Positions 1-4,773 of a DNA stretch of 64,000 nt are shown here, piece by piece (within the stretch, counting starts at the first letter, position 1; every line of letters begins with the position of its first letter). A program made the translations under genes and the position numbers. The DNA is from Brachyspira hampsonii. GTDB lineage: Bacteria > Spirochaetota > Brachyspiria > Brachyspirales > Brachyspiraceae. The DNA lies in the NCBI RefSeq assembly GCF_002214805.1, contig NZ_CP019914.1, positions 2,356,001 to 2,420,000 on the forward strand, written 5' to 3'. The notes under the pieces are model-generated. The model made no database searches. It saw nothing but the letters and a program-made list of their open reading frames with translations, and was not told the origin of the DNA.

Positions 1-1376
1 CTTCTCACCCTGAAATTATAGGCGTATGCGGATATGCTGATGATGTTTATGTTGTTTACAAAGATGAGGATTTAAATAAACTTCCTAATGATTCTAAAAA
101 AGCTTTAATAGTTGCTCAAACTACTTTACAGAAAGATGTTTTTGATAAATATGTAACTCAAATACAAAATAAGTATAAAGATACTGAAATAATTATTAAA
201 AATACTATATGTGCCGCTACTGAACAAAGACAAAATGAGGTATTAGAAATAGCAAAAAGAAATGATGTTGTACTTGTAATAGGCGGTTCTGAAAGTTCAA
301 ATACTAGAAATTTATATAATATAGCAGCAGCTATTAAGCCGGCATTTTATGTGGAATATAAAGAAGATTTGGATAAAATTGATTTATCAAACTATAAAAA
401 TATAGGTATAATGGCAGGAGCATCTACTCCTGATTGGCTTATAGAGGATATAGCACAAACTATAAAGGATAAATATGCCGGTAATTTTGTTAGGTTTATG
501 TCAAGGATATTTGATTTTCTAAATTACGGCTATATATTCTTTTCTGTAGGTGCTTTTTTAATGTCTTATGCTATATATGATATATTATCGCAGCCTTTTC
601 AATATCAAATAGGTATTATAATATCTTTGTACTATTTATATATGAGTTTAGAAAATGGGTATAGTAATTATACTATAAAGATAAGCGATAAAAGAAGGTA
701 TTTATTTTATCAGGAGTATAAAATATTTTTTAGATTTTTGATATTAATGAGTGCTATTCTTATGTTTTATTTTGCCTATAAAATTAATGTAGGAATATTG
801 ATGCTATCAATTCTTTCAAGTTTACTTGGAATGGGGTATAATATTAGTTTTGAAAATAAATCAAGATTTGAAAGTTCTTTTTTCTTCAGATTATTTAAAA
901 AACTCATACCATTTAAAGCCGTAGTAATATCTGTTGCAGTTACTGTATTATTAAACGGTTCAATATTTATTATGCATAGAAATATACTGAAAGAGAAATT
1001 ATTTTTATATTTATTTTCTACATTGACAGTATTTTTATTTATGTTTATAAGACAGGCTTTAATTGAAATAAAATTTTCTCAAAGTGATAAAATTGCAGGT
1101 GCTGTAACTTTGACTACATATATAGATTCTAATAAATTGGCATTTATAACAGGGATAATACCTATTGTTTTAGCTTTGTTTATGCTGGTAGGTATTATAA
1201 TAGGCAAATTTCCATTAGAGATTAATAAATTGAAATATTGTATTCCAATTATATACAGTAGTATAATTTCATTTGTTGTGATGAAAAAGAAGATAATAAC
1301 AAGCAGACATTTATTTTCTATATTGATAGATTCACCGCTTTATATATTATTTCTAGCGGCATTAATTAATATTTAA
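1..1376 (+). CDS. ispH: IspH (HMBPP reductase) C-terminal part fused to a UbiA-like membrane domain; 5' end outside window
   Basis: The reading frame is open from base 3 to the stop at 1376, giving 457 residues of a gene that starts upstream. The first ~165 residues carry IspH signatures: SHPEIIG, NTICAATEQRQ with an iron-sulfur Cys, VIGGSESSNTRNL and GIMAGASTPDW. IspH is the [4Fe-4S] enzyme that makes IPP and DMAPP in the MEP pathway. IspH normally ends soon after the last motif, but here ~290 more residues follow with about eight hydrophobic segments. This part resembles a UbiA-type prenyltransferase (RRYLFYQEYK, LLGMGYN, FIRQALIEIKFSQSDKIAG), although the usual Asp-rich metal motifs are largely lost. 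The IspH call is firm. The UbiA relationship is inferred from motif memory. Confidence 0.88.
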   Translation, partial: SHPEIIGVCGYADDVYVVYKDEDLNKLPNDSKKALIVAQTTLQKDVFDKYVTQIQNKYKDTEIIIKNTICAATEQRQNEVLEIAKRNDVVLVIGGSESSNTRNLYNIAAAIKPAFYVEYKEDLDKIDLSNYKNIGIMAGASTPDWLIEDIAQTIKDKYAGNFVRFMSRIFDFLNYGYIFFSVGAFLMSYAIYDILSQPFQYQIGIIISLYYLYMSLENGYSNYTIKISDKRRYLFYQEYKIFFRFLILMSAILMFYFAYKINVGILMLSILSSLLGMGYNISFENKSRFESSFFFRLFKKLIPFKAVVISVAVTVLLNGSIFIMHRNILKEKLFLYLFSTLTVFLFMFIRQALIEIKFSQSDKIAGAVTLTTYIDSNKLAFITGIIPIVLALFMLVGIIIGKFPLEINKLKYCIPIIYSSIISFVVMKKKIITSRHLFSILIDSPLYILFLAALINI

Positions 1377-3096: not shown

Positions 3097-4773
3097 TTAC
3101 TTCTTCTTCACATATTTATTTATAAATCTGCTTATAATCATAATAAATCCCATTATAGCTGATAATGCAAATCCTATCATACCTATAACAGATGTTCCAT
3201 GAAAAAGTGGAGGCATCTTACTTGTTATTATTAAAGCACTTGCTAATATTAAAGAAGCTAAAACTATAGAGTAGCTTAATCTATCTGCTAATCCGTCTAA
3301 AGTGGATGACAATGATTCCAGATTTTTATGCTCCATTTGAATTTTTACACTGCCTTTCTTTATAACTGATACTAAATTCTCTAAGTCTGAAGGAAATTCT
3401 TTTATTATATAACTATAATCATATAGCAGCTTTTTAATTTGTTTTAATAAATTATTAGGCTTCATTTGTTCTTTAACATATCTAAATGCAAATGGCTTAA
3501 TATGTTCTATTAATTTGACATCTTTATCTAAATTTCTAGCTACTCCTTCAAGAACTATCAAAGATTTTATTAAAAGCATAATATTGCTAGGCAAAGTTAA
3601 ACGAAATTCTCTTATTATACCTATAAGTTCATTGAATACATCTTCTATATTTATATTATCCAAAGGCATATCTACATATTTACTCACCAATATAAATATC
3701 GCCATATTAAATTCATCTATATTGTTTATTTCCCCATGATAGCATAAATCGAGTATTGATTTAGATAATTCCAAATAATCAGCAGAGCTTATACTCATAA
3801 TCAAAGAAGAAAAAGCATCTTTAGAGTTAGGCGGAATAAATCCTATCATACCAAAATCTAAAAAACATAATACATTATTTTCTAAAGCCATTAAATTACC
3901 CGGATGCGGATCTGCATGGAAAAAGCCTAACATAAATATTTGTTCCAATACGGCATCTATACCTATAGAAACAAGTTTTTTTCTGTCATATCTAGTATCA
4001 TTTTCTGCAATATCCGAGATTTTTATTCCCTCTATATATTCCATAGTTAATATATTTTTTGTACTGTATTCATTGTATATTTTTGCTATTTTTATATTTT
4101 TATTATTTTCAAAGAATCTGGCAAATTTTAAAGTATTATTTTTTTCAAAGTTAAAATCTAATTCCTGTATAAGCTGAGATTTAAATGCTGCTATCAATTT
4201 TTGAGGCTGCATTAATGCAAATTCTTCATTATATTTTTCTATTATGTTTGAAAGCCATACTATGATTTCTATATCTGTAAGTATATTTTCCTCTATATTC
4301 GGTCTTTTTACTTTTATAGCTACTTTTTCTCCGTTTTTTAATACAGCAGTATGAACCTGAGATATAGAAGCACTTGCTTTAGGAGTTAATTCAAATGATT
4401 CAAAAATATCTTCTATTTTTCCGCCAAGTTCTTCTTCTATAATACTTTTAGCAATATTTTCATCAAAAGGTTTTACATGATTTTGCAGTTTGCTCAATTC
4501 AGTTGTAATATCTTTTGGAAGTATATCATTTCTATTTGAAAGTATTTGCCCTAATTTAATAAATGTTGTACCTAACTCTTCGCAAGCCATTCTGATTCTT
4601 TCGGCTTTGCTGTATTTTCTTAAATCAATTCCTTTATATTTTATATTAATTTTATTTATTGGATTTTTTATTATTTTTAATATCGGAGTTATAGATATAA
4701 TATCTCTAAATCCGTATGCTATTATTATTGATATAATTTCTCTAGCTCTGTTTATAGATTTTATGTTATTCAT
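3097..4773 (-). CDS. ABC1/AarF/UbiB-family atypical protein kinase-like protein
   Basis: This 558-residue protein has the UbiB-family layout. A KxGQ-type N-lobe motif (FIKLGQILSNRNDILP) lies around residue 72, an ATP-binding lysine in VAIKVKRP near residue 153, the catalytic-loop FHADPHPGN near 290, and the metal-binding DFG (FLDFGMIG) near 307. Two hydrophobic helices at residues ~490-550 anchor the C-terminus, as in UbiB/COQ8. Family members act as ATPases or kinases supporting membrane isoprenoid-quinone metabolism; the substrate here is unknown. It lies downstream of a phasin-like gene on the same strand with a hairpin between, an arrangement I associate with many UbiB/phasin pairs. Confidence 0.9.
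   Translation of the reverse strand: MNNIKSINRAREIISIIIAYGFRDIISITPILKIIKNPINKINIKYKGIDLRKYSKAERIRMACEELGTTFIKLGQILSNRNDILPKDITTELSKLQNHVKPFDENIAKSIIEEELGGKIEDIFESFELTPKASASISQVHTAVLKNGEKVAIKVKRPNIEENILTDIEIIVWLSNIIEKYNEEFALMQPQKLIAAFKSQLIQELDFNFEKNNTLKFARFFENNKNIKIAKIYNEYSTKNILTMEYIEGIKISDIAENDTRYDRKKLVSIGIDAVLEQIFMLGFFHADPHPGNLMALENNVLCFLDFGMIGFIPPNSKDAFSSLIMSISSADYLELSKSILDLCYHGEINNIDEFNMAIFILVSKYVDMPLDNINIEDVFNELIGIIREFRLTLPSNIMLLIKSLIVLEGVARNLDKDVKLIEHIKPFAFRYVKEQMKPNNLLKQIKKLLYDYSYIIKEFPSDLENLVSVIKKGSVKIQMEHKNLESLSSTLDGLADRLSYSIVLASLILASALIITSKMPPLFHGTSVIGMIGFALSAIMGFIMIISRFINKYVKKK

Follow-up and report, generated by a model that had tools for sequence, protein, structure and literature searches.

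IspH, an oxygen-sensitive reductase, catalyzes the last step of the MEP pathway. "Rosetta stone" fusions of IspH to UbiA have been described in 47 sequences, all from sulfate-reducing bacteria (Rao et al. 2015, PMC4746011). The membrane domain of those fusions is classed as PT_UbiA_5 and carries two DXXXD motifs, the sulfate reducers also have a separate UbiA, and expression of the fusion proteins largely failed; metabolic coupling was the idea put forward for the arrangement (PMC4746011).

The 64-kb window analyzed here (the whole stretch of DNA under study) opens inside a gene of this type. Like the fusions of Rao et al. 2015, its product has an N-terminal IspH and a C-terminal UbiA-like membrane domain, is about twice the usual length and occurs in anaerobes. 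Unlike them, the spirochaete proteins have altered motifs in which the two DXXXD motifs are missing, and the window's genome, unlike those of the sulfate reducers, has no separate UbiA. The fusion type has been known since 2015; what is new here is its extension to many spirochaetes and the motif-altered form. The main text of Rao et al. 2015 (PMC4746011) mentions neither Brachyspira nor spirochaetes, Treponema or Leptospira, and our literature search found no paper naming Brachyspira and IspH together and none describing the altered-motif fusion or its spread among spirochaetes.

The fusion gene and its distribution

An open frame runs from base 3 of the window to a stop at 1374-1376 (+). Using upstream DNA from G000:C1:2346001-2358000 (L003, which reaches 10 kb 5′ of the window), we recovered the complete fusion gene at L003:9631-11376 (+). 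It starts with ATG, encodes 581 aa without an internal stop or frameshift, and consists of window positions 3-1376 plus 369 upstream bases. The features of the gene within the window are as follows.

3..464 (+), IspH domain, residues 125-278; the rest of the domain (residues 1-124) lies at L003:9631-10002
453..1373 (+), C-terminal UbiA-like membrane domain, residues 275-581 as modelled (AlphaFold, solved-structure neighbours, hhalign)
1374..1376 (+), stop codon of the fusion gene

The single gene claimed in the preliminary description is therefore confirmed as one uninterrupted ORF. The same single frame recurs in every one of the 25 further genus members and in more distant families, which together with the uninterrupted ORF rules out a frameshift or a join made during assembly.

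The IspH half matches PF02401 over residues 7-278 (270.4 bits against a cut-off of 24.5). The [4Fe-4S] iron-sulfur cysteines C12, C98 and C194 are invariant in 64/64 fusions, as are the active-site residues H41, H76, H126, E128, T165, S222, N224 and S265. This is the only IspH copy in the 3.19 Mb single-contig genome, leaving no second IspH that would render the fused copy dispensable, and the presence of IspG beside IspH is consistent with a working MEP pathway. In the reading we favor, the IspH half would go on producing IPP and DMAPP, the normal IspH products. The earlier proposal of prenyl diphosphate synthesis at the membrane needs correction to this extent: IspH yields IPP and DMAPP, and longer prenyl diphosphates require a separate synthase.

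We surveyed 296 genomes of the phylum, together with the whole family of the window's genome. The full-length fusion is present in 26/26 genomes of the genus, 28/29 of the family and 11 families in all, so that conservation, raised as a check for other Brachyspira, holds for the whole genus and extends well beyond it. We aligned 64 full-length copies. In many other spirochaete families IspH occurs as a separate protein of about 280-300 residues. The IspH tree groups families f1, f2 and f12 together, denoted here as the window's clade. About five label changes are needed on this tree to account for the fused or unfused state, and one gain of the fusion followed by losses is possible. In a separate contig scan with one pattern, the named relatives were all Spirochaetes, Spirochaetia, Spirochaetae or Spirochaetota, a result that is no evidence of absence elsewhere because a single pattern would miss diverged forms. 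A plasmid search with the fusion returned matches confined to the IspH domain, with none spanning most of the query.

In Brachyspira the fusion gene begins about 36 bases after rpmB (ribosomal protein L28), and a promoter-like TTGACT-17-TATAAT sequence (a consensus match) lies upstream of rpmB. In orders other than the window's, the fusion gene is mostly preceded by conserved genes resembling the type II secretion gspJ-N set; no common gene neighbour was found across families. A UbiB/ABC1 kinase-like gene at window positions 3097-4773 (-) is present family-wide, in a genome without a canonical UbiA. We rejected a specific link between it and the fusion, since genome G051 lacks the C-terminal domain yet keeps UbiB, and fusion genomes of other families (G007, G032, G057, G159) have no UbiB.

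The membrane domain and its pocket

The window protein itself matches the UbiA family PF01040 at 19.4 bits in the genome search, under the 34.2-bit cut-off, and hmmscan reported no Pfam or NCBIfam match for its C-terminal domain alone. Among the relatives, PF01040 is matched at E<0.01 by 30 of 42 fusion members (best 8e-10), two of which exceed the cut-off (38.8 and 34.3 bits). Alignment of the domain to other UbiAs with hhalign gave 96.5% probability (E 7e-10), and a sequence-profile search of the PDB gave chlorophyll synthase as its sole match (E 0.15).

The AlphaFold model of the domain (pLDDT 84.8, pTM 0.83) has the nine-helix UbiA arrangement, close to the "about eight membrane segments" of the preliminary description and one more than that count. 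A Foldseek search of solved structures with this model placed UbiA proteins at all of ranks 1-14, and VIA-align with 4tq4 (A. fulgidus UbiA) gave Z 17.2 and rmsd 3.9 over 262 residues. Soluble prenyl synthases share a core fold with UbiA proteins; the Z of the model is 16-17 to AfUbiA and ApUbiA and about 14 to the soluble synthases. A second model, of a relative from a spirochaete MAG (L097), gave the same UbiA answer with better E-values. The profile matches and predicted fold indicate that the C-terminal domain is homologous to UbiA. The assignment is secure only through the relatives and the fold, the window protein's own match being weak. The relatives' PF01040 matches, hhalign and the fold all agree with the UbiA-like domain proposed at the outset.

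Other unusual UbiA arrangements were seen in spirochaete genomes. In G154 (L119:1450-3093) an ABC-transporter permease (BPD_transp_1) and a canonical UbiA share one frame beside a UbiD-like gene, and G188 and G194 have similar 558-aa ORFs. G144 (L123:323-1747) encodes a protoheme farnesyltransferase-like UbiA-family protein fused to a phosphoribosyltransferase domain. Three adjacent stand-alone UbiA-like ORFs or fragments in G047 (L129:193-1965), with near-canonical Asp motifs, match the profile of the fused C-terminal domain. Family f29 (G052, G059, G109, G114) encodes UbiA proteins, 450-470 aa long, that carry a large additional domain.

In AfUbiA, N68, D72, D198 and D202 coordinate Mg, R22 and K146 bind the diphosphate, and Y139-S140 lies at the reacting bond; mutants of N68, D72, R22 or K146 abolish GPP binding and D198A weakens it 45-fold (PMC4106721). 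We mapped these residues by profile alignment and motif spacing, with R22 placed by sequence alone and the K146 equivalent uncertain, a Lys occurring in one of two adjacent columns. Three sites in the window were located in this way.

654..680 (+), residues 342-350, NGYSNYTIK, degenerate counterpart of the first Asp-rich motif (canonical NDxxDxxxD)
837..842 (+), Y403-N404, corresponding to the catalytic pair Y139-S140 in AfUbiA
1050..1100 (+), residues 474-490, RQALIEIKFSQSDKIAG, degenerate counterpart of the second Asp-rich motif

At the first motif, ENGYSNYTIK stands where NDxxDxxxD is expected and the Asn alone is retained (N68 kept, D72 to Asn, D76 to Lys); N342 and N346 are each present in 31/31 members of the window's clade. 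The second motif reads F-x-x-x-D, not DxxxD: D198 is replaced by Phe, D202 is kept as D486, E479 and Q484 are conserved, and hhalign sets EIKFSQSD over DIRDVIGD. The preliminary description had read the second motif (IEIKFSQSD) correctly as degenerate, and the first is degenerate as well.

Across all 64 fusions the equivalents of N68 (62/64), Y139 (63/64) and D202 (D486, 64/64) are retained; D198 is lost in 62/64, position 482 being Asp in 2/64 only, and D76 is lost too. Inside the clade R22 is replaced by Tyr (30/31), D72 by Asn (31/31), S140 by Asn (31/31) and D198 mostly by Phe, Y403 and N404 are each found in 31/31, and further invariant polar residues are K429, R474, Q484 and D567, with E479 in 30/31. 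Outside the clade the pair is Tyr in 32/33 and Ser in 27/33, R22 is kept in 29/33 and 23/33 have Asp or Glu at the D72 position; judged by these last two positions, the non-clade members may still be enzymes. In the clade, two of the four Mg ligands and the residue at the R22 position have fixed replacements, which suggests that the domain would be without classical Mg-dependent prenyl transfer. As loss of R22 or D72 abolishes GPP binding in AfUbiA, the clade domain might be unable to bind any prenyl diphosphate.

Selection, loss and metabolic setting

Over 193 pairs, dN/dS has a median of 0.090 in the C-terminal domain and 0.080 in IspH, indicating that the domain is under purifying selection. 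At larger distances its amino acids change faster (49% identity to L032 versus 79% for IspH). The replacements fixed in the clade, together with a dN/dS like that of IspH, point to repurposing and not to decay.

One close relative has lost the domain. In G051 (L036:1432-2361), whose IspH is 64% identical, ispH stops right after the IspH domain, with a clean absence of the UbiA-like domain. The locus, seen on one contig of one assembly, keeps a ribosomal L28-like gene upstream and a DUF4912-like gene downstream, as in Brachyspira, and neither the C-terminal domain nor a UbiA was found elsewhere in this 99% complete genome. Because G051 is nested among fused relatives in the IspH tree, the domain was lost there and not ancestrally absent; as G051 lives without it, at least one lineage can do without the domain.

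No additional UbiA was found at the search threshold in any genome of the window's family; a second candidate in the window's genome (10 bits) was discarded, as it lies within that genome's sole FPP synthase gene. Each of the six family genomes tested carries a single FPP-type synthase, and the two f2 genomes have two each along with canonical UbiA proteins. With no other UbiA and one FPP-type synthase there are no obvious quinone substrates, and we infer from this gene content that a quinone-type acceptor pathway is not apparent in Brachyspira.

Possible roles and relation to known systems

The reading we favor, tentatively and at somewhat short of even chances, is that of a real and ancient IspH-UbiA fusion whose UbiA-fold half has been repurposed as a tether that accommodates a prenyl ligand, does not carry out classical transfer and perhaps exerts feedback. 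By UbiA topology, the membrane half would hold IspH at the inner face of the cytoplasmic membrane, on the cytosolic side and above the pocket. The pocket would retain binding of a prenyl ligand such as DMAPP, GPP, FPP or undecaprenyl diphosphate; the prenyl-binding domain suggested in the preliminary description is plausible. The benefit could be local supply, or feedback in which ligand occupancy of the membrane domain tunes IspH.

It is rather unlikely, though a serious competitor, that the domain works as a membrane prenyltransferase whose metal site has been rebuilt, fed directly by the IspH half, in line with the metabolic-coupling idea of Rao et al. 2015, and acting on an unknown acceptor. 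The strict conservation of the Y139, N68 and D202 equivalents and of several pocket residues would fit such an enzyme, as would the R22 and D72 positions outside the clade (R22 kept, D/E in 23/33), and loss of D198 costs AfUbiA merely the 45-fold in GPP binding noted above (PMC4106721). However, two Mg ligands are gone, D198 in 62/64 fusions and D72 as Asn clade-wide, and Brachyspira, with neither a quinone-type UbiA nor a second polyprenyl synthase, has no known acceptor pathway.

We consider it unlikely that the domain is a mere ligand-free membrane anchor that positions IspH close to its electron donor or to the enzymes that act after it. Several diphosphate ligands have disappeared and G051 dropped the domain cleanly while retaining IspH, as expected of an anchor, but an anchor has no need for the fixed polar pocket residues N342, Y403, N404 and D486, and a dN/dS as low as that of the enzyme half would be unexpected. 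That assembly or annotation joined ispH to an adjacent membrane-protein gene can practically be dismissed, with the same frame in 26/26 genus genomes and in families sharing about 26-40% identity.

The spirochaete series combines three features absent from the earlier sulfate-reducer set, namely a graded loss of catalytic residues, f1 genomes without another UbiA and a domain-less close relative that keeps the rest of the locus, which makes the choice among enzyme, anchor and sensor directly testable.

Among known systems, the membrane domain resembles AfUbiA (4tq3/4tq4), ApUbiA (4od5) and DGGGP synthase (6m31/7bpu) in fold and helix order. It shares with UbiA prenyltransferases the motif-1 Asn, the Tyr of the YS pair and the last Asp of motif 2, and differs from them in that NDxxDxxxD and DxxxD are not present, the clade lacks the R22 equivalent and the domain is fused to IspH. 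IspH-RPS1 fusions likewise join IspH to a large C-terminal partner, which in that case is ribosomal protein S1, soluble and unrelated.

In animals, UBIAD1 is a GGPP sensor attached to HMG-CoA reductase, which it controls (PMC9579336). As in the UBIAD1-HMG-CoA reductase complex (8djk; PMC9579336), a UbiA-fold protein is physically attached to a reductase of the isoprenoid pathway, and by motif position we map the retained motif-1 Asn to the UBIAD1 disease residue N102. The animal system differs in being made of separate, eukaryotic proteins of the mevalonate pathway and in acting through protein degradation, and a similar way of working is put forward here as a proposal. An improbable but specific form of the repurposed fusion would be a single-chain bacterial counterpart of this pair, a pseudo-enzyme that senses a downstream prenyl diphosphate within the membrane and feeds back on IspH. 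If this were so, UbiA-fold control of an isoprenoid reductase would operate in bacteria and animals alike.
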